The notes under the pieces are model-generated. The model was not told the origin of the DNA. It did not search any database and saw only the letters and a program-made list of their open reading frames with translations. The position numbers were made by a program, and so were the translations under genes. This document shows positions 1 through 17,150 of a DNA stretch of 64,000 bases, in pieces. Each line of letters begins with the position of its first letter. The first letter of the stretch is position 1. The stretch is from Kaistia defluvii (lineage in GTDB: Bacteria; Pseudomonadota; Alphaproteobacteria; Rhizobiales; Kaistiaceae): assembly GCF_026343955.1 (NCBI RefSeq), contig NZ_JAPKNI010000005.1, positions 248,001 through 312,000 on the forward strand. Reading direction: 5' to 3'.

Positions 1-782
1 GCCGGGTCGTGATCTCGCTCGAAAACGTCTCGGCCGCCGACGATCGCGGTCGTGCCGGGCTGATCGAGGCCAGCCTGCCGGTCCGGGCCGGCGAGATCCT
101 CGGCATCGCCGGGGTCGCCGGCAACGGCCAGCGCGAACTCTCCGAAATCCTCACCGGCGTGCGCAAGCCGACCAGCGGCAAGGTCCTCATCGAGGGCGTC
201 GCCGTCGAGGATCCCTCGCCCGCCCTCTTCCTCGATATCGGCGTCGGCCACATCCCGGAAGACCGGCTGCGCAGCGGCGTCGCGCCCAGCCTCTCGGTCA
301 GCGACAACGCCGTGCTGCGCGCCTACACCGAGCCGCCGATCGCGCAGGGAATCCTGTTCAAGCCGGGCGCCGCCGACACGCTCGCCAGAGAAATCGCGGC
401 CGATGCCGAGGTGACGCTGCCGTCGCTGCGCACGCCGATCCGCAACCTTTCCGGCGGCAACCAGCAACGCCTCGTCGCCCGGCGCGAGATGCGCATCGCC
501 AGGCTCGCCATCGTCGCCGCCTATCCGAGCCGCGGCCTCGATGTCGGCGCGATCTCGACCCTGCTTCGCTATCTGATCGACCTGCGCAATGCCGGCGTGG
601 CGGTCGTGCTGATCTCCGAGGAGCTATCCGAATTGTTCGACGTCACCGACCGTATCGCCGTCATGTTCAAGGGGCGGGTGATGGGCCTGTTCGAGACAAA
701 GGACGCCGATCTCGAGACGGTCGGCCTGCTGATGGGCGGCCAGACGAAGCCGGCCACCGCGCCAACCGTCGAGGCTGCCTGA
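1..782 (+). CDS. Nucleoside/sugar ABC importer ATPase, C-terminal half (5' partial)
   Basis: The gene enters from the left edge; the reading frame is open from base 3. The visible 259 residues are the second nucleotide-binding domain of a duplicated RbsA/NupA-type ATPase. It has the degenerate P-loop GVAGNGQREL usual for this half, the signature LSGGNQQRLVARRE and a Walker-B-like stretch ending PSRGLDVGA. The paired permeases downstream are of the nucleoside (BmpC/NupP-NupQ) type, so the substrate is probably a nucleoside or base. The binding-protein gene is not in the window and probably lies upstream. The stop is one base before the next start. Confidence 0.9.
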   Translation, partial: RVVISLENVSAADDRGRAGLIEASLPVRAGEILGIAGVAGNGQRELSEILTGVRKPTSGKVLIEGVAVEDPSPALFLDIGVGHIPEDRLRSGVAPSLSVSDNAVLRAYTEPPIAQGILFKPGAADTLAREIAADAEVTLPSLRTPIRNLSGGNQQRLVARREMRIARLAIVAAYPSRGLDVGAISTLLRYLIDLRNAGVAVVLISEELSELFDVTDRIAVMFKGRVMGLFETKDADLETVGLLMGGQTKPATAPTVEAA

Positions 783-783
783 C

Positions 784-1866
784 ATGAGCGGCCTGCAATC
801 CCTGCGCCTCGTGCGCGTCTCGGCCGTGTCTGGTCGCCGTATTCTCGCCGCCCGGGTCATCAGCTTCATCGCGGCGCTGGCGGTCGGCGCGGTCGTGCTC
901 GCCGCCTGCGGCTTCGACCCGCTGCATCTCGGCACCCAGATCCTCAAGAAGAGCCTCGGCTCGCGCTTCGGGCTGGAAGATCTCGGCCTGCTGCTGACGC
1001 CGCTGATCCTGACCGGCCTCGCCGTCACCGTGATGATGAAGATCGGCCTCTGGAACATCGGCGCCGACGGCCAGTTCTATATCGGCGCCTTCGCGGCGAC
1101 CGCAATCGGCCTGTTCGTCAAGGGACCGGAGCCGGCCATGCTGGTGCTCTGCTTCATCGCGGGCGCGGCCGGGGGCGCGCTCTGGATCCTCGTCCCGACG
1201 CTTGCCCGTGCCTATGGCAAGGTCGACGAGATCATCACCACGCTGCTGCTGAACTTCGTCGCCTTGCTGCTGGTCTATTACGTCGCCACCGGCCCGTGGC
1301 GCGACCGCACCACCGGCACCGTCGCCTCGACCGGCCGCGTGCCATACGAGATGCCGGATTTCTTCGGCTCGCTGCATTGGGGCTTCGTCATCGCGCTGAT
1401 TGCGCCGGTCCTGTTCGGACTGCTGCTGCGCTACACCAAATGGGGCTACGAGATCCGCCTGACCGGCGCCAATCCGGAAGCCGCGCACTATGCGGGCATC
1501 CCCGTCCGCCGCCGCATGATCACCATCATGCTGCTTTCCGGCGCCATCGCCGGCCTTGCCGGCATGCTGGAAGTGACCGGCACGGTGCATCGCCTGCAGG
1601 GCGGCATTTCCAACAATTACGGCTATCTCGGCGTCATGGTCGCGGTGCTGGCGCGCGGTTCGCCGGTCGGCGTCATCGCCGGCGCGGCTCTGATGGCGAT
1701 CATCCTGAACGCCGGCATCATCCTGCAGACGCAGGGCCTGACCACCGCCGCCGTGCTGGCGCTCACCGGGCTGATCATGATGTTCACGGCGGTTGCGGAC
1801 CAGTTCGCCCATTACCGCCTCGTCCGCGCCCTGCCCGTTCCGGCAGCGTCGGCGGCGGCGGGCTGA
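784..1866 (+). CDS. Nucleoside ABC importer permease 1
   Basis: A 360-residue inner-membrane permease of the BPD_transp_2 family. The hallmark is LWNIGADGQFYIGA near residue 90, typical of nucleoside (NupP/BmpC-like) permeases, followed by the EIRLTGANPEAAHYAGI coupling segment around residue 220. About eight to ten hydrophobic segments can be read. The ATG directly follows the ATPase stop, so the two genes are translationally coupled. It would pair with the second permease to form the channel. The exact substrate cannot be read from sequence, but the downstream purine deaminases favour purine nucleosides or bases. Confidence 0.9.
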   Translation: MSGLQSLRLVRVSAVSGRRILAARVISFIAALAVGAVVLAACGFDPLHLGTQILKKSLGSRFGLEDLGLLLTPLILTGLAVTVMMKIGLWNIGADGQFYIGAFAATAIGLFVKGPEPAMLVLCFIAGAAGGALWILVPTLARAYGKVDEIITTLLLNFVALLLVYYVATGPWRDRTTGTVASTGRVPYEMPDFFGSLHWGFVIALIAPVLFGLLLRYTKWGYEIRLTGANPEAAHYAGIPVRRRMITIMLLSGAIAGLAGMLEVTGTVHRLQGGISNNYGYLGVMVAVLARGSPVGVIAGAALMAIILNAGIILQTQGLTTAAVLALTGLIMMFTAVADQFAHYRLVRALPVPAASAAAG

Positions 1867-1875
1867 GGAAATCCC

Positions 1876-2811
1876 ATGGAACTCATCACCGGCATCCTGA
1901 CGACGGCGGTCCTGGCGGGCGGCGTTCTGGCGCTCGCGGCGCTGGGCGAAGTGCTGGCCGAGCGCGTCGGCGTCTTCAATCTCGGCGTCGAAGGGCTGAT
2001 GGCGCTGGGCGGCGTTACCGGCATCATCGCCGTGACGCTCTACCCCAATCCGTTCTTCGGCTTCGTCATGGCGCTGCTGGTCGGCCTCGGCTTCGGCGCG
2101 CTGTTCGCGCTGGCGACCGTCGTCTTCCGCGCCAACCAGGTGCTGTGCGGCCTGGCGCTGACCATGCTCGGCTCCGGCCTCGCCGTCACCATCGGCAAGA
2201 GCTATTCCGGCATGCCCGCCAAGGCGACGTTCGAGAAGATCATCGTTCCCTATCTCAGCGACCTGCCGATCGTCGGCCGCGCCTTCTTCTCGCAGAACAT
2301 CCTCGTCTATCTGATCTACCTGATCATCCCGGCCGTGATCTCCTTCATGCTGTTCCGCACCCGCCACGGCATGAATGTCCGCGCCGTTGGCGAAAACCCT
2401 GCTGCCGCTGATTCCGCCGGCATCCCTGTGACGCTGATCCGCTTCTGCTACGTCACCATCGGCGCGGCGCTCGGCGCCGGGGCCGGCGCCTATCTGACGC
2501 TCGCCTTCGTGCCGTCCTGGTCGGATGGCGTGGTGGCGGGGCGCGGCTGGATCGCCGTGGCGCTGGTGATCTTCGCCGGCTACCGGCCGTTCGGCGCGGT
2601 GTTCGGCGCGCTGCTCTTCGGCGTTATCACGGCGATTGGCTATGTCGGGCAGGCGCGCAACTGGCCGATCTCGCCCACCTTCCTGTCGATGCTGCCCTAT
2701 CTCGGCACCATGCTGGCGATGATCCTGCCGGTGTTCCTGTGGCGGCGGCTGCGGCTTGGCTTCACCGCGCCGGCCGGCCTCGGCGTGCCGTTCTTCCGCG
2801 ACGAACGATGA
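1876..2811 (+). CDS. Nucleoside ABC importer permease 2
   Basis: A 311-residue permease, shorter than its partner, as is usual for the NupQ/BmpD subunit. Near the N-terminus it has LGEVLAERVGVFNLGVEGLM, the standard motif of this subfamily, and later NVRAVGENPAAADSAGI, the cytoplasmic coupling helix. It starts 9 bases after permease 1 and completes the importer (ATPase plus two permeases). A hairpin lies directly after the stop at 2817-2836. Confidence 0.9.
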   Translation: MELITGILTTAVLAGGVLALAALGEVLAERVGVFNLGVEGLMALGGVTGIIAVTLYPNPFFGFVMALLVGLGFGALFALATVVFRANQVLCGLALTMLGSGLAVTIGKSYSGMPAKATFEKIIVPYLSDLPIVGRAFFSQNILVYLIYLIIPAVISFMLFRTRHGMNVRAVGENPAAADSAGIPVTLIRFCYVTIGAALGAGAGAYLTLAFVPSWSDGVVAGRGWIAVALVIFAGYRPFGAVFGALLFGVITAIGYVGQARNWPISPTFLSMLPYLGTMLAMILPVFLWRRLRLGFTAPAGLGVPFFRDER

Positions 2812-2892: not shown

Positions 2893-3762
2893 ATGGCAAG
2901 ACCGGCTGAAAAAGCATCCCTCGACCAATGGTACGTGATCGACATCGCGGCCGAGATTCCGGCCGAGGCGAAGCCGAACCGGCTGCTCGGCCGCGACCTC
3001 GTCGTTTCCCGCGATCCGGCGGGCGCCATCGTCGTGCGGGAAAAGCTGGAGGGCGGCGCCCTCGGCGAACCGCTTCCGACGCGCGATCGCTACGGCTTCG
3101 TCTGGACGACGCTGGGCACGCCGGAGCGCGAACTGTTCGACATTCCCGAGGCCGACGAGCCGGATCGCCGGCATGTCGTCTGCGGCGCGGTCGCGGTTCG
3201 CGCGTCAGGCCTGCGCATCGTCGAGAACTTCCTCGACATGGCGCATTTCCCCTTCGTCCACACCGACATCCTCGGCGCCGAGCCGCACACCGAAGTGCGT
3301 CACTACACGACCGAGATCCGCCGCGACGTCGACGAGGTCTGGGCGACGAATTGCGAGTTTTTCCAGCCGCAGGCGGCGCTGTCCGCCTCGGGCGGAATCA
3401 TGACACAGTACATGTATCGCGTCGCCGCGCCATTCCAGACGATGCTCTACAAGACCTGTCCCGCGGCGGCCAACCGCTGGGACGTGATCTGCCTGTTCGT
3501 GCAGCCGCTCGATCATGACCGCTGCCGCGCCCATCCGGTGATGTTCATCATCGACGACGAGAGCACGCTCACCAGCATGGTGCACTTCCAGCAGCTGATC
3601 TTCCTGCAGGATCGCATCATCCTGGAGAACCAGCGCCCGCGCCTCTTGCCTCTCGAACCGCGTGCGGAAATCCCGACGCGTGCCGACATCTCCTCGGTCG
3701 CCTATCGGCGCTGGCTGAAGGAGAAGGGCGTCACCTTCGGCACCGCCGAACGCGCCGCCTGA
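2893..3762 (+). CDS. Rieske-oxygenase-like protein lacking the Rieske domain
   Basis: The 289 residues begin at ATG 2893 after a clean AGGAG at 2881-2885. The C-terminal part matches the catalytic domain of VanA-type ring-hydroxylating or demethylating oxygenases. The mononuclear-iron motif LDMAHFPFVH (D115, H118, H123) is present, including the aspartate that normally bridges to the Rieske cluster of the neighbouring subunit. N-terminally the family's beta strands are recognisable (QWYVIDIA, LLGRDLVVSRD, RYGFVWTTLG). The CxH..CxxH cluster segment expected between about residues 50 and 65 is missing: the only cysteine nearby is C97. It is either an oxygenase fed by a separate ferredoxin or a repurposed fold. 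It lies between nucleoside permeases and purine deaminases, which suggests a purine or modified-base role. Confidence 0.7.
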   Translation: MARPAEKASLDQWYVIDIAAEIPAEAKPNRLLGRDLVVSRDPAGAIVVREKLEGGALGEPLPTRDRYGFVWTTLGTPERELFDIPEADEPDRRHVVCGAVAVRASGLRIVENFLDMAHFPFVHTDILGAEPHTEVRHYTTEIRRDVDEVWATNCEFFQPQAALSASGGIMTQYMYRVAAPFQTMLYKTCPAAANRWDVICLFVQPLDHDRCRAHPVMFIIDDESTLTSMVHFQQLIFLQDRIILENQRPRLLPLEPRAEIPTRADISSVAYRRWLKEKGVTFGTAERAA

Positions 3763-3848: not shown

Positions 3849-5177
3849 ATGACCATCGATATTGCCATCATCAACGGCACCGTGCTGCCGATGGGCGGCG
3901 CCAAGCCGATCGCGAACGGTGTCGTCGCCATCACCGGCAACACCATCGCCGCCGTCGGCCCGGCCGATCAGGTCGATATCCGCGGCGCGCGAAAGGTCGT
4001 CGATGCGTCGCTGTCGGCCGTCATGCCGGGCTTCTGCGACAGCCACACCCACATCGCCTCCAACATGCTGCTGCGTGGACTTCTGGAGGATGTGAAGCTG
4101 TTCGAATGGCTCTCGACCATGTGGCAGCTCAAGCGCAATTTCGACCCCGAGACGCTCTATTGGGCGAGCCTGACCGGCCTCGTCGAAATGGTGAAATCCG
4201 GCATCACCACTTTCAACGAGCACTTCGACGCCTATGCCGTCGAGCCCGAGATCGAGGCGCTGAAGAAGATCCCGCTGCGGGCGACGCTGGGCTATGGCTT
4301 CGCCGATCGCGGCCTCTATGCGCCGATCACCGACTGGTCGTGGAAGACACTCAACAATTTCGGCGATCTGGTCGCCAAGCATCACAAGACCCGCGATGGC
4401 CTGTTGCAGATCGGCCTGTCGCCGCATGCGCCCTATTCCTGCGGCGAGGAGATGTACCGGCTGACGCGCGAAGTGGCCGACGCCTACAGCGTGCCCATCC
4501 ACACCCACCTCGCCGAAGGCACGCAGGAAATGGCCTATATGGCCGAGAATTACGGCACCTCGCCGGTGCGCTGGCTGGAATCGCTCGGCTTCCTCAAGGG
4601 GGACATCACGGCGGCGCATTGCACGCAGCTCGACACCGAAGACATGAAGATCCTGGCGGCGCATGACGTCAAGATCGGCCATTGCCCCTGCTGCAACGCC
4701 AAGCTCAATTCCGGCACCATGCCGCTCAAATGCGTGCTGGAGCACGGCATCACGGTCGGCCTCGCCACCGACGGCCCCGCCAGCCACAACACGCTCGACA
4801 TGTTCCAGGAGATGAAGTTCGCCGGCCTGATCCACAAGGACAAGACCAACGACGTCGAGTTCCTGAAGACCCACGAGATCCTGGAGCTGGCGACGGCGCA
4901 GGGCGCCAAGGCGATGAACCGGCCGGAGACCGGCCAGCTCGTGCCGGGCATGATGGCCGACGTCATCGTCGTCGACCTCGACAAGGCGCATAGCCTGCCC
5001 GTCTATGACACCGCCGCCGCGCTGGTCTATTCGAGCCGTGCCGACGACGTCACGCATACGATCGTCAACGGGCGAATGCTGATGGAAAACCGCATCGTCG
5101 CGGGTATAGACGAGGCGGAAATCCGCCGCGAGTTCCGCACCCGCGCCCATGCGCTGCGCCAGCGCAGCCTCGGCTGA
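3849..5177 (+). CDS. Amidohydrolase, MTA/SAH- or purine-deaminase-like
   Basis: A 442-residue metal-dependent amidohydrolase. Visible ligands are the HxH pair in PGFCDSHTHIASN, the histidine in HTHLAEGTQE, the histidine in AAHCTQLD and the aspartate in GLATDGPASHNT. This is the layout of the S-adenosylhomocysteine/methylthioadenosine deaminase, AtzA/TrzN and 8-oxoguanine deaminase family. ATG 3849 was chosen over an upstream TTG (3813) because of GAGG at 3834-3837 and because the protein then begins directly with the first beta strand. Deamination of an imported purine derivative fits the neighbouring guanine deaminase; the exact substrate is open. Confidence 0.8.
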   Translation: MTIDIAIINGTVLPMGGAKPIANGVVAITGNTIAAVGPADQVDIRGARKVVDASLSAVMPGFCDSHTHIASNMLLRGLLEDVKLFEWLSTMWQLKRNFDPETLYWASLTGLVEMVKSGITTFNEHFDAYAVEPEIEALKKIPLRATLGYGFADRGLYAPITDWSWKTLNNFGDLVAKHHKTRDGLLQIGLSPHAPYSCGEEMYRLTREVADAYSVPIHTHLAEGTQEMAYMAENYGTSPVRWLESLGFLKGDITAAHCTQLDTEDMKILAAHDVKIGHCPCCNAKLNSGTMPLKCVLEHGITVGLATDGPASHNTLDMFQEMKFAGLIHKDKTNDVEFLKTHEILELATAQGAKAMNRPETGQLVPGMMADVIVVDLDKAHSLPVYDTAAALVYSSRADDVTHTIVNGRMLMENRIVAGIDEAEIRREFRTRAHALRQRSLG

Positions 5178-5206: not shown

Positions 5207-6574
5207 GTGACCGATCTCCGCCACAAAACGATCGCCGGCACCTTCTGCCATGCGCCGATATTGGGCGAGATCGAGATCCTGAGGGATGCGCTGGTCGAGA
5301 TCGACGGCGAGGGCCGGATCGCCAAGGTGGTCGCCGCCGGCAGCGCCGCCCATGCCGAGGCACGCACGGCGGCGGAGGCGGCGGGAACGCTCATCGTCGC
5401 GCCGCCGCGCAGCTACATCCTGCCCGGATTCGTCGATCTGCACATCCACGCGCCGCAATACCCGCAGCTCGGCAAGGCGCTCGACGTGCCGCTCGAAGTC
5501 TGGCTACAGCAGCACACCTTCCCGCTCGAGGCGCGCTATGCCGACCTCGCCTTCGCCCGGCGACACTATTCCGCGCTGGTCGGGGACCTGATCGCCAATG
5601 GCACGACGACGGCGCTCTATTTCGCCACCCAGCACGTCGAGGCCTCGAAGGCGCTGGTCGACATCTGCCTCGAAAAGGGCCAGCGCGCTTTGGTCGGCAA
5701 GGTGGCGATGGATAATCCCGACGAATGCCCCGACTATTATCGCGATAGCTCGGCCGAGGAAGGCATCGCCGGCACGAAGTCGCTGATCGACTATGTGGCC
5801 GCGCACCCGGAAAACCACGGCCTCGTTCATCCGGTCATCACGCCGCGCTTCGTGCCCTCCTGCACCGATCCGCTGCTGGAAGGGCTCGGCGAACTGGCGC
5901 GCGAATGCGGCTGCCATGTCCAGACCCACTGCTCGGAGAGCGACTGGGCGCATGGCTATGTGCTCGACCGCTTCGGCCGCACCGACGCCGAGACGCTCGA
6001 CCGCTTCGGGCTGATGACGCGCCGGACCGTGCTGGCGCATTCGAACTTCCTGACCGAGGGCGACATGGACCTGATCCACGCGCGGGGCGCCGGCGTCGCG
6101 CATTGCCCGCTCTCCAACGCCTATTTCGCCAATTCGGTGTTCCCGCTGCGTGCAGCCCTGGCGAAAGGCGTGCGCGTCGGTCTCGGCACCGACATTTCCG
6201 GCGGCCCCACCGCCTCGATGATCGAGGCGCAGCGCATGGCCATCGCCGCCTCCCACATGCTCGAGACCGGCGTCGATCCCGCGCTGCCGCAAGGCACGCG
6301 CGGCCGCCCCGGCTCGCGCATCGATTTCGACATCGCGTTCCACCTGGCGACGGCCGGTGGCGGCGACGCGCTCCACCTTCCCGTCGGCCAGTTCGCGCCC
6401 GGCTACCATTTCGACGCCATCCTCGTCGATCCCGACGCGCCGGGCGGCACGATGCGCGTCTGGGACGATATCGACAGCGACGAGGACGCGCTGCAGAAGA
6501 TCGTCTACACGGCCTCGAAGGCCAATCTCGCCGCCGTCTGGATCGGCGGCCGGGGTGTCGCCGGCGCGCTCTAG
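5207..6574 (+). CDS. guaD: Guanine deaminase
   Basis: This 455-residue amidohydrolase converts guanine to xanthine. It shows the family's distinctive LPGFVDLHIHAPQYPQ near residue 75, the long insert with VWLQQHTFPLEARYAD, the HCSESDWAH stretch, VLAHSNFLTEGDMDL, VAHCPLSNAYFA and GLGTDISGGP. These cover the expected HxH, H, H and D metal ligands. The start is GTG at 5207. It lies 29 bases after the preceding amidohydrolase, in the same orientation as the nucleoside importer, making a purine-scavenging operon. Confidence 0.9.
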   Translation: MTDLRHKTIAGTFCHAPILGEIEILRDALVEIDGEGRIAKVVAAGSAAHAEARTAAEAAGTLIVAPPRSYILPGFVDLHIHAPQYPQLGKALDVPLEVWLQQHTFPLEARYADLAFARRHYSALVGDLIANGTTTALYFATQHVEASKALVDICLEKGQRALVGKVAMDNPDECPDYYRDSSAEEGIAGTKSLIDYVAAHPENHGLVHPVITPRFVPSCTDPLLEGLGELARECGCHVQTHCSESDWAHGYVLDRFGRTDAETLDRFGLMTRRTVLAHSNFLTEGDMDLIHARGAGVAHCPLSNAYFANSVFPLRAALAKGVRVGLGTDISGGPTASMIEAQRMAIAASHMLETGVDPALPQGTRGRPGSRIDFDIAFHLATAGGGDALHLPVGQFAPGYHFDAILVDPDAPGGTMRVWDDIDSDEDALQKIVYTASKANLAAVWIGGRGVAGAL

Positions 6575-6781: not shown

Positions 6782-7828
6782 ATGGATATGGGCAAGAAGC
6801 TTCTCTCGTTCGCACTCGCTGCGAGCCTCACCGCGCTCTCCTCGGGCGCTTTCGCCGAAGGCATCGCCGGCGCGCCGGCGCCGTTCGACAAGGGCGGCGT
6901 CAAGATCGCCGTCATCAGCTTCCTCGGCTCGGGCGACTGGCTGCAGGCGTTCGAGGCCGGCGTGAAGCGCCAGGCCGATGCGCTCGGCGTCGAGGCCAAT
7001 CTCTCCCAGGCCCGCAACGACATCAACGCCCAGCGCGAGCTGATCCAGCAGGCGGTCAATCTCGGCGTGAAGGGCATCGTCATCAACAACGGCCAGCCCG
7101 AAGCGCTGAAGGACGTCGCCCAGGCGGCGCTCGACGCCGGCATCCCGGTCGTCGCCTATGACGTCAATCTCGACAACGCCAAGATCCCGCAGATCGAGCA
7201 GTCCGACGCCGACATGGCACGCCTGGTGCTGGAGCAGGCCGTCAAGGAGCAGGGCGAGACCTTTGACGGCGGCGCCGTCTACGTCTCCGGCTTCGCGCCG
7301 CTCGACCGCCGCTATGCCGTCTGGAAGGAATTCGGCCAGAAGTATCCGGGCATCAAGGAAGTCGCCACCTGGGGCGTCGTGAACGACAGCGTCCCGGCTT
7401 CCGTCGCCGACCAGACCAAGGCCGTGCTCGCCGCCAACCCGACGCTCTCCGTCGTCTTCACCCCCTGGGACGAGTTCGCCCGCGGCGTGAAGCTCGCCAT
7501 CGACGAGGCCGGCGTCGCCGACAAGGTCAAGATCTACGGCGTCGACATCTCGACCTCGGACATCCAGGCCATGCGCGAGCCGAACAGCCCCTGGGTCGCC
7601 ACCGCCGCCACCAACCCGGCGGTCGTCGGCGAGGTTTCGGTGCGCGCCCTGGCACAGCTGATCGCCGGCCAGGACCCCGGCCACTCGGTGCTGATCCAGC
7701 CGACTCTCGTCACCAAGCAGACGCTGGTCGACAACGACATCAAGACGATCGAGGAGCTGCAGGAAAAGTTCCCGGCCTTCAAGGACAGCGACGCTGCCAA
7801 GAAGGACTGGATCCCGGCCTCGAAGTAA
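6782..7828 (+). CDS. Periplasmic sugar-type binding protein (RbsB-like)
   Basis: A 348-residue exported binding protein: a lysine-containing start and hydrophobic core ending SSGAFAEG, a typical Sec signal peptide, then a two-lobed periplasmic-binding-protein fold (type 1). ATG 6782 follows a GGGG-type ribosome site. It is clearly paralogous to the binding protein at 16030-17079. Shared blocks include AGAPAPFDKGGVK, GQPEALKDVAQ, GFAPLDRR, DEFARGVKLA and SPWVATAATNPAVVGEVSVR. It belongs to the operon with the ATPase at 9447 and the permease at 10991. The ligand is unknown: a pentose-like or methylthioribose-like compound is my inference from the paralogue's position beside mtnK. Confidence 0.85.
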   Translation: MDMGKKLLSFALAASLTALSSGAFAEGIAGAPAPFDKGGVKIAVISFLGSGDWLQAFEAGVKRQADALGVEANLSQARNDINAQRELIQQAVNLGVKGIVINNGQPEALKDVAQAALDAGIPVVAYDVNLDNAKIPQIEQSDADMARLVLEQAVKEQGETFDGGAVYVSGFAPLDRRYAVWKEFGQKYPGIKEVATWGVVNDSVPASVADQTKAVLAANPTLSVVFTPWDEFARGVKLAIDEAGVADKVKIYGVDISTSDIQAMREPNSPWVATAATNPAVVGEVSVRALAQLIAGQDPGHSVLIQPTLVTKQTLVDNDIKTIEELQEKFPAFKDSDAAKKDWIPASK

Positions 7829-7845: not shown

Positions 7846-7992
7846 AACCCTCCCCTCGAGGGAGGGTCAAAAGTGCGAAGCACTTTTGGGGAGGGGCGCT
7901 TGAAACATCGGGGTGGGAAAGCTGCGGTTCGCCGAAGTACCCCCTCCCCAAATCCGCCAAGGCGGATTTGACCCTCCCTCAAGGGGAGGGTT
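7846..7992. repeat. Inverted pair of intergenic palindromic elements
   Basis: Two roughly 52-base elements lie head to head. Each runs CCCTCCCC, GAGGGAGGGTCAAA, a short variable hairpin, then TTTGGGGAGGGG. The left copy is 7846-7896; the right copy is 7940-7992, inverted. The variable hairpins differ (AGTGC..GCACT against ATCCGCC..GGCGGAT), as expected of a dispersed REP-like family. They sit directly after a binding-protein gene. Confidence 0.75.
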
Positions 7993-8033
7993 TCACCCGT
8001 GAACTCGCCTTCCGCCAAGACGAAGAAAAGACC

Positions 8034-9287
8034 ATGACCCTTCCGACCCCCGACTATGCCAAGAACATTCGCCTGATCGGCCATTCCGACCAGGGCGGGC
8101 GGCCGGACGCGTTGCAGGTCATGGTGCATCGCGGCTTCGCCTATGTGGCGCATCCCTGGTCGCAGGGCTTCTCCATCATCGACGTGCGCGACCCGAAGAA
8201 TCCCGGCGAAACCACCTTCATTCCCGCGCCGCCAAACACCTGGACGATCCACCTGCAGACGCATGACGACCTGCTGCTCGTCATCCATGCGCGCGACCTG
8301 TTCGCCGACGCCGCCTTCGCGGTCGATGAGAAGGTCTATTACACCAGGTCGGTCGGCGAGACGGTCGGCACGGCCGGCGGCGCGAAAGGGTCGCGCAACT
8401 GGTCGGCCGGCATGGCGATCTACGATATTTCCAGGCCGACAGAACCGCGCCAGATCGGCTTCTTCCCGGTCGAGGGCGTCGGCATCCATCGCATCTGGTA
8501 TGTCGGAGGCCGCTACGCCTATGTCTCGGCGCTGGTCGATGGCTATAGCGACTACATCTTCATGATCGTCGACCTTCAGGACCCAACCCGGCCGGTCGAA
8601 GCCGGCCGCTGGTGGATCCCCGGCATGCATCTGGCCGGTGGCGAAAGCCCGAACTGGGGCGAGGGCCGGCGCTATGCGCTGCATCACAGCCTGGTCGAGG
8701 GCGACACCGCCTATGCCTGCTGGCGCGATGGCGGCCTCACCATCCTCGACATCGCCGACAAGTCGGCGCCGAAGCTGATCACGCACAAAAACTGGTCGCC
8801 GCCCTTCGGCGGCGGCACCCATTCGCCCCTGCCCCTGCCGAAGCGCGACCTGTTGATCGTCGCCGACGAGGCCGTGCTGGACCACGAGGAAGACGGCCGC
8901 AAGCGGACCTGGATCTTCGACATCAAGGACAAGGCGAACCCGATCTCGATCGCCACGCTGCCAACGCCGGCCGAAGCCGATTATACCGCCAAGGGCGGCC
9001 ATTTCGGCCCGCACAACCTGCATGAGAACCGGCCCGGCAGCTTCGTCTCCGACACGCTGATCTTTGCCACCTACCAGAATGCCGGCGTACGGGTGTTCGA
9101 TATTTCCAACCCGTTCGAGCCGAAGGAGACGGGCGCGCTGGTGCCGGCCGCGCCCGAGCGCATGGTCGACAAGCGGGACAATCGCCCGCGCGTGATCCAG
9201 TCGGCCGATCTCTTCGTCGACGCCAACGGCATCATCTATTCGACCGATTACAATGCCGGCCTGGCGATCATGGAGTATGGCGGCTAG
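8034..9287 (+). CDS. LVIVD-repeat beta-propeller-like protein in an ABC operon
   Basis: A 417-residue protein made of repeated units in which a beta strand is followed by a xxVxDIsxPxxP-like turn: FSIIDVRDPKNPGE, MAIYDISRPTEPRQ, FMIVDLQDPTRPVE, LTILDIADKSAPKL, TWIFDIKDKANPIS and VRVFDISNPFEPKE. This is the LVIVD repeat pattern, predicted to build a beta-propeller. No signal peptide is visible from ATG 8034, so it appears cytoplasmic. No catalytic motif is recognised, though it is rich in histidines (GTHSPLPLPK, HFGPHNLHE). Its place between the binding-protein and ATPase genes suggests a role in processing or sensing the imported compound. Confidence 0.8.
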   Translation: MTLPTPDYAKNIRLIGHSDQGGRPDALQVMVHRGFAYVAHPWSQGFSIIDVRDPKNPGETTFIPAPPNTWTIHLQTHDDLLLVIHARDLFADAAFAVDEKVYYTRSVGETVGTAGGAKGSRNWSAGMAIYDISRPTEPRQIGFFPVEGVGIHRIWYVGGRYAYVSALVDGYSDYIFMIVDLQDPTRPVEAGRWWIPGMHLAGGESPNWGEGRRYALHHSLVEGDTAYACWRDGGLTILDIADKSAPKLITHKNWSPPFGGGTHSPLPLPKRDLLIVADEAVLDHEEDGRKRTWIFDIKDKANPISIATLPTPAEADYTAKGGHFGPHNLHENRPGSFVSDTLIFATYQNAGVRVFDISNPFEPKETGALVPAAPERMVDKRDNRPRVIQSADLFVDANGIIYSTDYNAGLAIMEYGG

Positions 9288-9333: not shown

Positions 9334-9385
9334 GCCGGGTGAGGGTTTACGGCCTCACCGGAAACACCGTAAACCCTCACCCGGC
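9334..9385. repeat. Perfect 19-bp inverted repeat inside the ABC operon
   Basis: Arms at 9334-9352 (GCCGGGTGAGGGTTTACGG) and 9367-9385 are exact reverse complements around a 14-base loop. The mRNA between the LVIVD gene and the ATPase gene would fold into a very stable hairpin. It belongs to the class of dispersed palindromes seen elsewhere in the window and could protect or process the transcript. Confidence 0.8.
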
Positions 9386-9446
9386 CCGATGGGCCGTCCT
9401 CTCCCCTTGGAGAGGCGACAAGACAAAACTGGAACCGGCTAGCGCC

Positions 9447-10994
9447 TTGCCCACATCTTCGACGCCCAAGAAAATCGCCGTCTCCGTATCGGGACTGGAA
9501 AAATCGTTCGGCCCGACGCGGGCACTTGCGGGCGCGGATCTCGTTGTCGAGGCTGGCGAGATCGTCGCGCTGATGGGCGCCAACGGCGCCGGCAAGTCGA
9601 CGCTGGTCAAGATCCTCTCCGGCTCGATCTCCGCGGATGCCGGCACGATCCTCCTGAACGGCCAGAGCGTGTCCTTCGCCTCGCCGGGCGAGGCGCAGGC
9701 GGCTGGCGTCGCCACCGTGCATCAGGCGACAGACCAGGCCGGCGCGGCGGGGCTGACCGTCGCGGAGAACCTGACGCTGAACGAGCTTTGCGGCACGGGC
9801 AGCTTCTTCGTCTCGCCGCGTTCGACCCGCAAGCGGGCCGCCGAAATCGCCGCGCTGATCGACCTCGACCTGCCGCTCGACCGCGACTTCATCGACCTGC
9901 GCCCGGCGGAACGCCAGTTGATCGCCATCGCCCGCGCCGTCGCGGCGAAGGCGTCGGTGCTGATCCTGGACGAGCCGACCTCCAGCCTGTCCTCGACCGA
10001 GGCCGAGCGGCTGTTTTCGGTGCTGCGCCGGCTGAAGGCGAGCGGCATCGCCATTCTCTACATCTCGCACCGCACCGGCGATCTGGCCGCGATCGCTGAT
10101 CGCGCCGTGGTGCTGCGCGGCGGCAAGGTCGTCGCCTCCTTCGCCAAGCCGATCGATTTTTCCGCCGCCGTCGCCGCCATGATCGGCCGCACGCTCTACG
10201 CCGCCCTGCATGACGGCACCGTATCGAGCGCGCCGATCCTCGCTTCCGTCAAGCGGGCGCGCCTCATCCCCGGCGCGAGGCCGTTCGATCTCGACCTCCG
10301 CTCCGGCGAGGTCGTCGCCATCACCGGCACGCTGGGCTCGGGCAAGAGCCGCCTGCTGCGCGCGCTGTTCGGGCTGGAAACGCTGGCCGAGGGCGAATTC
10401 ACGCTGGACGGCAAACCGTGGCTCTCGAACGGTCCTGCCCGCTCGATCGAGAACGGTGTGTTCATGGTGGCGGAAGACCGCTGGGCCTCGTCGCTGCTGC
10501 CGCCCGAAATCCCCGGCGCGTCGATCGCCGGCACCATCGCCTTGCCGCATCTGCCGCGCTGGTTCCCTCTGGGCCTGCTGCGCGAGACGCGCGAACGCCT
10601 GGTCGCAAGCGACGCCATTGGCCGCCTCGGCATCAAGGCGCGCGGCCCCGATGATACGCTCGACCAGCTTTCGGGCGGCAACCAGCAGAAGGTCGTGCTG
10701 GCGCGCTGGCAGGCGGCGCCCTGCCGGCTGCTGCTGCTCGACGAACCCTTCCAGGGCGTCGATGTCGGCGCCCGCGCCGATCTGATCGCCGCGATCCGCA
10801 ACAGCCAGTCCGGTTCGGCGACTCTGATCGCCACCAGCGACACCGAAGAAGCGCTGGAGGTTGCCGACCGCATCCTCGTCATGCGCGACCATTCCCTCTA
10901 CGAGGCCGACGGTAGTCATGAATCGCTCGCCGCCGTGATCGGCAGCGTCGAGAGCATCGAGACCCGCGCCGACGGCACAGGACAAACACCATGA
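9447..10994 (+). CDS. Sugar-type ABC importer ATPase (RbsA-like, two NBDs)
   Basis: A 515-residue duplicated ATPase. The first domain has Walker A GANGAGKST, an atypical signature (LRPAERQLIAIARA) and Walker B VLILDEPTSSL. The second domain has GTLGSGKSRLL, the signature LSGGNQQKVVLARW and LLLLDEPFQGVD. Unusually for RbsA-like proteins, the second P-loop keeps the GxGKS lysine. I place the start at TTG 9447, because an upstream in-frame extension translates through the 9334-9385 palindrome and is unlikely to be real. The stop overlaps the permease start by 4 bases. Confidence 0.85.
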   Translation: MPTSSTPKKIAVSVSGLEKSFGPTRALAGADLVVEAGEIVALMGANGAGKSTLVKILSGSISADAGTILLNGQSVSFASPGEAQAAGVATVHQATDQAGAAGLTVAENLTLNELCGTGSFFVSPRSTRKRAAEIAALIDLDLPLDRDFIDLRPAERQLIAIARAVAAKASVLILDEPTSSLSSTEAERLFSVLRRLKASGIAILYISHRTGDLAAIADRAVVLRGGKVVASFAKPIDFSAAVAAMIGRTLYAALHDGTVSSAPILASVKRARLIPGARPFDLDLRSGEVVAITGTLGSGKSRLLRALFGLETLAEGEFTLDGKPWLSNGPARSIENGVFMVAEDRWASSLLPPEIPGASIAGTIALPHLPRWFPLGLLRETRERLVASDAIGRLGIKARGPDDTLDQLSGGNQQKVVLARWQAAPCRLLLLDEPFQGVDVGARADLIAAIRNSQSGSATLIATSDTEEALEVADRILVMRDHSLYEADGSHESLAAVIGSVESIETRADGTGQTP

Positions 10995-12007
10995 CGGACC
11001 AAGCCACCGCATCGTCGAAGCCGGCTTCGACCTTCGCCGAAACCGCCCGCAAATATGCGCTCTTCGTGCTGCTGGCGGTGATGCTGGTCGGCTTCTGGTC
11101 GGCCCAGCCGGCCTTCATCAACTCGGCCAATCTGTTCTCCATCCTGCAGGCGGTCTCCGTCGTCGCGATCCTCGGCGTCGGGGTCTCGATCACCATGTCG
11201 GCCGGTGGTTTCGACCTGTCGGTCGGCAGCGTCGCCGCCTCCTCGGTCATGGCGGCGAGCTACGCCATGGTCGTGCTGCAGATGAACGCCTTCGAGACGC
11301 TCGGCCTCGTGCTGCTGATGGGCGCTTTCATCGGGCTGGTGAACGGCCTGCTGATCGTGCGCGTTGGCGTTCCGGACCTGCTGGCGACGCTTTCGACCAT
11401 GTTCCTGCTCGCCGGCCTGCAACTGATCCCGACCGGCGGCCGCTCGATCACCGCCGGCATGATGCTGCCGAACGGCACCACGGCGGCCGGCGCCTATGAT
11501 CCTGCCTTTCTCATCCTTGGCCGGGGGCGCCTGTTCGACACGGTGCCCTACCCTGTCATCGTCATGGCCGTCGTCGCCATCCTCGCCTGGTTCCTGATGG
11601 AGCGGACGCGCTGGGGCCGGGTGTTCTACGCGATCGGCGGCAACGAGACGGCGGCGCATCTCGCGGGCGCGCCGACCAAGGCCTATCGCCTCTGGGCCTA
11701 TGTGCTCTCCGGCACGCTGGCCTCGCTGGGCGGCCTGATCGTCGCTTCGCGCGTCGGCCGCGGCGACGTCTCGGCCGGCAATTCGCTGCTGCTCGACGCG
11801 GTCGCCGCCTCGCTGATCGGCTTCGCCGTCCTCGACAAGCGCCGCCCGCATGTGCTGGGCACCGTGCTCGGCGCGATCTTCGTCGGCGTGCTGCTGAACG
11901 GCCTCACCATGCTCAACGCCCCCTATTATACGCAGGACTTCGTCAAGGGCGTGGTGCTGGTCGGCGCGCTGGCGCTGACCTTCGGGCTGGGCAAGAAGAA
12001 GCGCTAG
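10991..12007 (+). CDS. Sugar-type ABC importer permease (RbsC-like)
   Basis: A 338-residue BPD_transp_2 permease with about nine hydrophobic segments. Family marks are VSITMSAGGFDLSVGSVAA around residue 75, FYAIGGNETAAHLAGAP around residue 215 and a C-terminal lysine-rich tail. ATGA overlap with the ATPase indicates translational coupling. With the binding protein at 6782 and the ATPase it makes a full importer. Only one permease gene is present, so it probably works as a homodimer, as in ribose-type systems. Confidence 0.9.
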   Translation: MTDQATASSKPASTFAETARKYALFVLLAVMLVGFWSAQPAFINSANLFSILQAVSVVAILGVGVSITMSAGGFDLSVGSVAASSVMAASYAMVVLQMNAFETLGLVLLMGAFIGLVNGLLIVRVGVPDLLATLSTMFLLAGLQLIPTGGRSITAGMMLPNGTTAAGAYDPAFLILGRGRLFDTVPYPVIVMAVVAILAWFLMERTRWGRVFYAIGGNETAAHLAGAPTKAYRLWAYVLSGTLASLGGLIVASRVGRGDVSAGNSLLLDAVAASLIGFAVLDKRRPHVLGTVLGAIFVGVLLNGLTMLNAPYYTQDFVKGVVLVGALALTFGLGKKKR

Positions 12008-12222
12008 CCGCAGGCGCACGAGCAGGAAACAAAGCGCCCCACGGTCGATATCCTATCTGGCGCGCGCGACTACGGGATATTCCGGAGGATCGGCACGACC
12101 GTACCCATGCTAGGAGTATCGGAAGCCGTGGCGCGCACCGTCGCGCCGCGACGTACCGAGATCAGTAGAACCCGAAGGCGTCGCGGGGCAGGCCAGGCAC
12201 ATCGCTTTCGGCTGGAGGCGTG

Positions 12223-13572
12223 ATGCGCAGCATCAAGATTGCATTCTGGGTGATCGCCGGAGCGCTCGTCCTGCTGTTTCTGCTGGCGGACCCTTCGATC
12301 CTCTTTCCGGCGGGGTTCTTGCCGTTCCGCACGACGATGGTCCAGTTGACGGGAATCCTGGCGATCGGCTTCATGAGCGTCGCCATGCTGCTGGCCTTGA
12401 GACCACAGTTTGCCGAGAACCGGCTCGGCGGCCTCGACAAGATGTATCGCCTGCACAAATGGCTGGGAATCGCCGCGCTGGTCCTATCCGTCCTGCATTG
12501 GCTATGGTCGCGAGGCCCCGGCTGGGCGGTTAGCCTCGGCTGGCTGCAGCGGGGCGCGCGGCCGCCACGCGTGCCGATCACCGATCCCGTCAAGGCGTTC
12601 CTGGCAAGCCAGCGCGGCTTCGCCGAAGGTATTGGCGAATGGGCCTTCTACGCCTCGGTGGCGCTGATCGTTCTCGCGCTGCTGCGCTATTTTCCCTATC
12701 GCTGGTTCTACAAGACACATCGTCTCATCGCGATCGCCTATCTCGTCCTTGTCCTCCACGCCGCTTTCCTGATGACCTACGAGTATTGGGCCACGCCGCT
12801 GGGCCTGATGACGGCCCTGCTGATGGCCGGAGGCGCGATCGCGGCCGTGCTGGCGCTGGCCGACAGGATCGGAGCCAACAGGCGCGTGAGCGGCCGGATC
12901 GTCGGCCTCCACAATTTTCCGGGTGTGCGAACGCTCGAGACCCAGATCCAGCTGGATGAGGGATGGCCGGGCCACATGGCCGGACAGTTCGCCTTTGCCA
13001 CGTCCGATCCGGCGGAAGGGCCCCATCCCTACACGATTGCCTCCGCTTGGAACGGCACGACACGGCAGATCACCCTGATCACCAAGGAACTGGGCGATCA
13101 CACCGCGCGGCTGCGATACAGGCTCCGCATCGGCCAACCCGTTCGCCTGGAGGGCCCATATGGCCGGTTCATCTTCGAGGATGGCGCCGATCGCCAGATC
13201 TGGATCGCCGGCGGCATCGGCATAACCCCCTTCATCGCGCGGATGGAGCAGCTAGCCCTTGCTCCCGCCGGAACGACGAGGCGGGCCGTGCAGGTAGACC
13301 TGTTCCACAGTACGGCCGACGTTGACGAAGAGGCCCTGGATCGACTGGCGGCCAGTGCCCGGGCGGCGGACATCCGGCTCCACCTGCTGATCGATGCCCG
13401 GGACGGCCGGCTGAGCGGGGATCGCATCCGCGCGACCGTGCCCGATTGGGCCAGGGCGAGCATCTGGTTCTGCGGGCCCGCGGGCTTCGGAGATGCCTTG
13501 CGACGGGACTTCGCCTCGCATGGCTTCCCCGTGGAGAAACGTTTCCACCAGGAACTGTTCTCGATGCGCTGA
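12223..13572 (+). CDS. NOX-like ferric-reductase-type flavocytochrome
   Basis: A 449-residue membrane oxidoreductase. The N-terminal half has about six transmembrane helices with two spaced histidine pairs for b-type hemes, in YRLHKWLGIAALVLSVLHW and YKTHRLIAIAYLVLVLHAAF. The C-terminal half is an FNR-type domain with the FAD motif HPYTIAS near residue 270, the NADPH-binding GGIGITPF near residue 330 and FCGPAGFG near residue 415. This is the architecture of ferric reductases and bacterial NADPH-oxidase-like proteins. It stands alone: no MsrP-like periplasmic partner is adjacent. ATG 12223 follows GGAGG. Confidence 0.85.
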   Translation: MRSIKIAFWVIAGALVLLFLLADPSILFPAGFLPFRTTMVQLTGILAIGFMSVAMLLALRPQFAENRLGGLDKMYRLHKWLGIAALVLSVLHWLWSRGPGWAVSLGWLQRGARPPRVPITDPVKAFLASQRGFAEGIGEWAFYASVALIVLALLRYFPYRWFYKTHRLIAIAYLVLVLHAAFLMTYEYWATPLGLMTALLMAGGAIAAVLALADRIGANRRVSGRIVGLHNFPGVRTLETQIQLDEGWPGHMAGQFAFATSDPAEGPHPYTIASAWNGTTRQITLITKELGDHTARLRYRLRIGQPVRLEGPYGRFIFEDGADRQIWIAGGIGITPFIARMEQLALAPAGTTRRAVQVDLFHSTADVDEEALDRLAASARAADIRLHLLIDARDGRLSGDRIRATVPDWARASIWFCGPAGFGDALRRDFASHGFPVEKRFHQELFSMR

Positions 13573-16029: not shown

Positions 16030-17079
16030 CTACTGTGTCGCGACGGGGATCCAGCTGGCGCTCGCCGCGTCGCTCTTGCCGAAAGCCGGCAGCTTGGCGT
16101 CGAGATCCTCGACCGTCTTGATGGCATTGTCGCGCAGATCCTTTTGCGTGATCAGGACCGGCTTCACAATGATGTTGTGGCCGGGATCTTCCCCCGCGAT
16201 CAACTTGGCGACGGCGCGCACCGAAACTTCGCCGACAACGGCCGGGTTGGTGGCGGCGGTGGCGACCCAGGGGCTGCCCTCGGCGGCGATCTCGGTGATG
16301 TCGGCGGTCGAAACGTCGGCCGAATAGATCTTCACCTTGTCGGAGATGCCGAGTTCGTCGGTGGCGAGCTTCACGCCGCGGGCAAATTCGTCATAGGGCG
16401 CGAAGACGACGGTGATGTCGGGATTGGCCTGGAAGGCGGCCTTGGTCTGGTCGGCGGTCGACGAGGCGGTGGTGTCGTTCACCGCGCCCCAGCGCGCCTT
16501 CTCGACGATTCCGGGATTGGCCTTCCTGGTCTCTTCCCAGATCTCGTTGCGGCGGTCGAGCGGCGCGAAGCCGGCGACATAGACATAGCCGGCGTTGAAG
16601 GCGGTGCCGTTGTCGGCGATCGCCTGGCCGAGCGCGGCCTTGGCCAGTTCATGATCGGACTGCTCGACCTGCGGAATGGCCGGATTGCCGAGGTCGACGT
16701 CGAAGGCGACGACCTTGATGCCGGCGTCGAGCGCCTTCTGCGCGACGTCCTTCAGCGCTTCCGGCTGGCCATGGTCAATGATGATGCCCTGGACGCCCAG
16801 ATTGATCGCCTGTTCGACCTGCTCGCGCTGGGCGGCGGCGTCCTGGCGGCCGGAGAAGATCTGCAGGTCGATGCCGAGCGCCTTGGCCTGCTTCTGCGCG
16901 CCGGCCTGGTAGGCCTGGAAGAAGTCGCCGGCCGAAATGAAGGTGACCAGCGCAACCTTGACGCCGCCCTTGTCGAAGGGAGCGGGCGCCCCAGCGATAC
17001 CCTCGCCATATGCGGGTGCGCCCAGCAGGCTGGTGGCCATGAGAGCCGCTCCGGCGAGGCCGATTGCGAAACGTTTCAT
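16030..17079 (-). CDS. Periplasmic binding protein, putative methylthioribose uptake
   Basis: A 349-residue exported type-1 periplasmic binding protein starting MKRFAIGLAGAALMATS with a Sec signal ending LGAPAYGEG. It is a close paralogue of the protein at 6782-7828; by eye more than half of the residues agree across the whole length. It heads the operon that ends with mtnK, divergent from mtnB-mtnD, so methylthioribose is a reasonable ligand guess. No ATPase or permease gene accompanies it. Either it uses the importer at 9447-12007 or one elsewhere. ATG 17079 was chosen because an upstream extension has no signal-peptide character. Confidence 0.85.
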   Translation of the reverse strand: MKRFAIGLAGAALMATSLLGAPAYGEGIAGAPAPFDKGGVKVALVTFISAGDFFQAYQAGAQKQAKALGIDLQIFSGRQDAAAQREQVEQAINLGVQGIIIDHGQPEALKDVAQKALDAGIKVVAFDVDLGNPAIPQVEQSDHELAKAALGQAIADNGTAFNAGYVYVAGFAPLDRRNEIWEETRKANPGIVEKARWGAVNDTTASSTADQTKAAFQANPDITVVFAPYDEFARGVKLATDELGISDKVKIYSADVSTADITEIAAEGSPWVATAATNPAVVGEVSVRAVAKLIAGEDPGHNIIVKPVLITQKDLRDNAIKTVEDLDAKLPAFGKSDAASASWIPVATQ

Positions 17080-17120
17080 ACTTGTCTCTCCCTCGCGTCC
17101 ATCCGGACGGCTTTGACCCG

Positions 17121-17150
17121 GCAACGCGTGCCAGCAGATGGCACGGTTGC
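17121..17150. promoter_or_regulatory. Large inverted repeat, putative operator between divergent mtn operons
   Basis: The core CGTGCCA-GCAGA-TGGCACG (17127-17145) is a perfect 7-bp inverted repeat. It extends outward to GCAAC and GTTGC with a single bulged base, giving 12 paired positions. It lies 42 bases upstream of the binding-protein start and 178 bases upstream of mtnB, ideally placed to control both directions. It could bind a LacI-family regulator (one is encoded at 19023) or act as a hairpin in the leader. Confidence 0.55.

Follow-up and report, generated by a model that had tools for sequence, protein, structure and literature searches.

A Rieske-less oxygenase of Kaistia defluvii and a stand-alone Rieske protein as its probable partner

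Introduction

How can an oxygenase of the Rieske type receive electrons when the segment that binds its [2Fe-2S] cluster is missing from the polypeptide? The question is raised by a protein, here called OXY, that is encoded in a 64,000-nucleotide stretch of the Kaistia defluvii genome (the window; contig NZ_JAPKNI010000005.1, positions 248,001 to 312,000). In ordinary Rieske oxygenases (ROs), the electron step from cluster to iron takes place between domains of identical subunits, so that the two sites cannot be varied independently. A preliminary description of the window had concluded that OXY would need either another electron donor or a different chemistry. The evidence assembled here favours the former, namely that OXY serves as catalytic subunit in an RO built from two polypeptides, the cluster being carried by a separate Rieske protein (RSK), a reading to which we assign a probability of roughly 0.82.

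An oxygenase without its cluster-binding segment

The gene and its diagnostic positions are as follows.

2893..3762, plus strand: OXY, Rieske-less oxygenase, putative catalytic subunit, 289 aa (ORF, Pfam, PDB matches, alignment, conservation, predicted fold)
3043..3084, plus strand: deletion point, where roughly 55 residues that would bind the cluster, CxH and CxxH included, are gone (alignment with full-length ROs)
3235..3261, plus strand: codons of the bridging D115 and of the iron ligands H118 and H123, in ENFLDMAHFPFVH (invariant in 44/44 homologues)
3610..3612, plus strand: codon of D240, third iron ligand by alignment with NdmA/SxtT (invariant in 44/44)

The reading frame opens with an ATG behind a GAGGAG site, and the bias at its third codon positions identifies it as a real coding ORF. 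The protein is of the VanA/SxtT type: Pfam places VanA_C (PF19112) at residues 103-277 (E 5.6e-21) and returns no match to the Rieske domain (PF00355), and sequence matches in the PDB (SxtDIOX/GxtA, SxtT, NdmA and NdmB) begin, in every case, at residue 63 or beyond. Alignment with full-length ROs indicates that the N-terminal strands of the Rieske sandwich (WYVI...NRLLGRDLVV) are retained and that the chain picks up again at RYGFVW after the deletion; C97 is the sole cysteine of the first 110 residues, as the preliminary description had stated.

The same architecture recurs throughout the family, in which the deletion is shared by 80 of 80 relatives, CxH...CxxH occurs in none of the 80 members and NxxDxxHxxxxH in all of them. 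Furthermore, a comparison of 44 homologues at 40-97% identity shows no variation at N112, D115, H118, H123 or D240. The loss of the cluster segment and the intact iron motif D115/H118/H123, both proposed at the outset, are thereby borne out, with D240 added as a ligand that the preliminary description did not contain, and neither of the findings it had feared, a cluster motif restored in relatives by a sequencing gap or frameshift and a lack of conservation of the three iron-motif residues, was encountered. Structure prediction, one of the checks it had proposed, returned an RO fold minus the cluster segment (pLDDT 85.4), and this model superimposes on GxtA over 276 residues (Z 31.2, 2.3 A). 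Compared with a canonical RO alpha subunit, OXY possesses the 2-His-1-Asp iron site, the bridging Asp and, in its predicted model, an SRPBCC catalytic fold on a Rieske-like N-terminal sandwich, and it is without a Rieske motif in the same polypeptide. As judged from sequence, OXY is devoid of the segment that binds the [2Fe-2S] cluster, whereas its bridging Asp and mononuclear iron site are retained.

A stand-alone Rieske protein with the complementary defect

A Rieske-domain search of the genome located a candidate donor on the same contig, 5.6 kb upstream of OXY and just beyond the window edge.

G000:C17:244548-245276, minus strand: RSK, stand-alone Rieske protein, 243 aa, outside the window
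G000:C17:243922-244548, minus strand, with RSK: GST-like gene, outside the window, in an operon divergent from OXY

The RSK and GST-like genes overlap by ATGA and are followed by an adenine deaminase gene; the layout of divergent operons may allow co-expression of OXY and RSK. The cluster motif of RSK is intact (CPHRG...CLYHGW), and its best PDB match comprises residues 9-123 of SxtDIOX/SxtT, the same proteins of which OXY covers residues 109-333. CxH...CxxH is present in 23 of 23 RSK sequences and the iron-site motif in none of them.

The model of RSK, built from the homologue at L004 (pLDDT 91.9), aligns over 219/225 residues to residues 2-313 of a dicamba monooxygenase chain (Z 19.6), and on this account the last 90 residues are read as a putative shortened catalytic domain without the iron site. 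This C-terminal kinship is based on the predicted-fold alignment together with a motif alignment with NdmD; when the RSK and OXY families were compared profile against profile, just the shared N-terminal Rieske-like strands emerged. On the predicted fold, RSK would be a degenerate oxygenase that spans both domains and has lost its iron site. The defects of the two proteins are complementary, with OXY devoid of the cluster and RSK of the iron site, and the pair has the look of one oxygenase divided in two, each part having lost what the other kept.

Relation to NdmCDE and other known systems

The closest known case is NdmCDE, the 7-methylxanthine N7-demethylase of Pseudomonas putida CBB5. According to reviews, NdmC is without a Rieske cluster and works with NdmD, which supplies an extra Rieske domain, and with the GST-like NdmE (PMC4408171, PMC10380055); together the three make up an active complex of 3:3:3 stoichiometry with 7-methylxanthine as its specific substrate (PMC10380055). 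The likeness to the present system extends to the Rieske-less catalytic subunit, the Rieske domain in trans, the GST-like protein, here encoded next to RSK, and the purine context. OXY shares the deletion and common ancestry with the NdmC type, forming one clade (support 100/99) with the NdmC-like proteins of Klebsiella and S. meliloti, which stand for that type in a tree that does not include the P. putida NdmC sequence.

This proximity raises the alternative that OXY is an ordinary NdmC orthologue, which would remove the N7-methyl group of methylxanthine with electrons from an NdmD-type Rieske-reductase fusion encoded elsewhere, as would fit its 54% identity to the Klebsiella NdmC-like protein over 235 residues and the 39% identity of the GST-like protein to the NdmE-like protein of Klebsiella. 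However, no fused NdmD-type protein is present among the PF00355 and PF00970 matches of the genome, and the oxygenases linked to NdmD, whose fused clusters were found in S. meliloti and Klebsiella, group together as a sub-clade of their own inside the Rieske-less oxygenase clade (95/98). Moreover, caffeine-type clusters carry formaldehyde and methylxanthine genes as neighbours, whereas OXY is accompanied by a BMP-type nucleoside importer and by guanine, adenine and 8-oxoguanine deaminases. Altogether, these differences make orthology improbable.

The donor differs as well. In NdmCDE the donor domain shares one polypeptide with an FNR-type reductase, whereas RSK is a free protein with no linked reductase at 80 of 81 stand-alone-type loci. 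The N-terminal region of NdmD (~250 residues), consisting of a Rieske domain and a shrunken remnant of a catalytic domain, can be aligned with RSK along its full length, and RSK stops where the FMN/NADH/ferredoxin reductase of NdmD starts; in the trees, stand-alone RSK proteins and NdmD Rieske domains are sister groups (88/89 and 99/97). Among other relatives, SxtT/GxtA (SxtDIOX) is, of the proteins with a solved structure, the nearest in sequence to either half and one of the nearest in fold, but bears both metal sites on a single polypeptide and acts on other substrates, and HpxD, the oxygenase of a Mo-independent xanthine hydroxylase, is a related RO annotated as purine-acting, but is full-length with its own Rieske domain. 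A literature search, with most subscription journals outside its scope, found no published description of a stand-alone Rieske donor for a Rieske-less oxygenase. The OXY/RSK system is of the NdmC type with a free-standing donor, and represents no new kind of chemistry.

As to the source of electrons for RSK, an unlinked reductase or ferredoxin would presumably reduce it. The Rieske proteins of the genome comprise RSK, a bc1-type Rieske protein followed by cytochrome b (L085), a further short Rieske protein (L083) and a full-length RO that has a reductase of its own, and no dedicated RSK reductase was found among the Rieske and FAD-reductase matches of this genome. The reductase beside that full-length RO (G000:C1, L087), although unlinked to RSK, is a candidate for this role. 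The single stand-alone-type locus with a reductase relative in its flanks (L056) encodes, at 10220-11161, a VanB-like reductase that is 41% identical to the corresponding portion of the NdmD-like protein from S. meliloti and is another candidate RSK reductase.

Co-occurrence of the two polypeptides

Equally important is the distribution of the genes. OXY occurs in 13 of the 28 genomes of the family, and RSK (E <= 4.3e-59) and GST (E <= 8.6e-64) occur in exactly those 13 (Fisher p 2.7e-8, without phylogenetic correction). Among 289 genomes sampled across the class, six carry OXY; five of the six, and no further genome, carry RSK, and the one without it is 64% complete. Eight loci and one plasmid have no RSK in their flanks; in all cases it is found elsewhere in the genome or record. 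In Rhizobium johnstonii, Shinella and Sinorhizobium sp. B11, a single operon contains RSK, OXY, GST, an amidohydrolase (deaminase) and the BMP transporter, in this order and in one direction. Part of the co-occurrence could reflect joint inheritance as one island. Five genomes (G015, G016, G022, G025, G027) hold two OXY genes with a single RSK and a single GST, which suggests that one RSK/GST pair is shared as donor by both copies. A short contig (L055) codes for a pair of dissimilar Rieske-less oxygenases, together with a GST and a divergent Rieske protein of greater length (open frame of 331 aa).

These patterns bear on two further alternatives. With its complete iron site, OXY could in principle be reduced directly by a ferredoxin or reductase while RSK serves another enzyme; yet RSK tracks OXY exactly across genomes, including those where one RSK accompanies two OXY copies, and the invariant bridging Asp is useful chiefly with a docked Rieske cluster, so that direct reduction has very little in its favour. 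Fainter still are the prospects of OXY having abandoned redox chemistry to become a binding protein, or an oxygenase with another cofactor or no need of electrons: taken by itself, the window with its missing cluster domain would suit such a role, but no member of the family departs from the bridging Asp or from any of the iron ligands, and a cognate Rieske protein exists. A degraded gene or assembly error, to which the missing domain alone might point, is rejected, since the identical deletion is common to 80 homologues from many genera, among them two at 97% and 88% identity from independent assemblies, and the ORF shows coding bias. The need for another donor, as originally proposed, finds its most likely answer in RSK, which always accompanies OXY, and the 'different chemistry' offered beside it becomes superfluous.

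The purine neighbourhood

OXY belongs to a plus-strand operon in the order given below.

L091 13761-15131, plus strand, upstream of the window: BMP-family binding protein of the same transporter as the ATPase (gene neighbourhood)
1..782, plus strand, starting upstream of the window (L091 15206): nucleoside-type ABC transporter ATPase (profile match)
784..1866, plus strand: ABC permease 1 (PF02653)
1876..2811, plus strand: ABC permease 2, 81 bp upstream of OXY (PF02653)
3849..5177, plus strand: amidohydrolase, TRZ/ATZ-type deaminase, starting 86 bp after the end of OXY (PF01979; the top NCBIfam match, PRK06038, falls short of its cut-off)
5207..6574, plus strand: guanine deaminase (TIGR02967, 409.1 bits against a cut-off of 375.4)

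The link to purines that the preliminary description had drawn from this operon is strengthened by the guanine deaminase and by the related loci, 20 of which have an 8-oxoguanine deaminase family gene upstream of OXY (9/9 tested above cut-off); in the window genome none adjoins OXY and two lie elsewhere. No formaldehyde-oxidation gene was seen among the conserved neighbours of OXY, and no Rfam riboswitch hinting at a ligand in the window, L091 or three related loci.

A second paralogue group (L058-L081, OXY at 8001) has a different operon, with RSK-GST-adenine deaminase, LysR, a TPP-type enzyme, a GMC oxidoreductase, an amidohydrolase, OXY and a xanthine dehydrogenase-like gene. Position 233 is E in this group and Q in the other, and probably lines the substrate pocket, since it aligns with the site of the N-to-Q substitution that the NdmA QL mutant chains of the PDB carry.

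Other features were noted in the surroundings. Window positions 6782-7828, 7968-9287 and 16030-17124 hold the genes of two sugar-type binding proteins with similar N-termini and an LVIVD beta-propeller gene, the latter situated between one of these binding-protein genes and the transporter genes at 9339-12007. The product of 12220-13572 is a membrane ferric-reductase-like protein with an FAD/NAD domain and a weak PF00970 match. In L091, 2745-2970 on the plus strand matches the Rfam family Cis90_sRNA (75.6 bits) and overlaps a transporter-binding-protein-like gene on the opposite strand.

Proposed mechanism and substrate

In the two-polypeptide RO favoured here, RSK would occupy the place that, in an ordinary trimer, belongs to the adjacent subunit's Rieske domain, an arrangement for which the available models are single chains. 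From the RSK cluster the electron would travel by way of D115 in OXY to the iron that H118, H123 and D240 coordinate, and the GST-like protein may act as a scaffold or folding factor, like NdmE in NdmCDE.

The assignment of substrate and reaction is the weakest part of this account. The substrate is probably a purine, judging from the nucleoside importer and the guanine, adenine and 8-oxoguanine deaminases of the neighbourhood, and the reaction would be an O2-dependent oxidation at the imidazole side (C8 or an N7 substituent) of the imported molecule. Hydroxylation of guanine at C8 to 8-oxoguanine is a tentative proposal, placed slightly ahead of N7-demethylation, for example of 7-methylguanine, because of the 8-oxoguanine deaminases adjacent to OXY in related loci and the lack of a conserved formaldehyde gene; the latter counts mildly against demethylation, and each of the two reactions is by itself less likely than not.

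More broadly, it is conceivable, though we would not wager on it, that an ancestral oxygenase was duplicated and that the copies underwent reciprocal loss of cluster and iron site, leaving the free RSK with its GST-like scaffold as an interchangeable donor for at least two catalytic subunits that differ in their purine specificity and among which there would be a route to 8-oxoguanine or urate that needs no molybdenum.

Significance

With the cluster and the iron site apparently located on separate polypeptides, the two can be purified, mutated and mixed separately. Such a split system would allow titration of cluster against iron site, a test of the bridging Asp, and the swapping of catalytic subunits on a common donor. 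The two-piece oxygenase arrangement is common in root-nodule bacteria and their kin, and rhizobial genes annotated just as 'aromatic ring-hydroxylating dioxygenase subunit alpha', 'Rieske protein' and 'glutathione S-transferase' would together constitute one purine-degrading enzyme.
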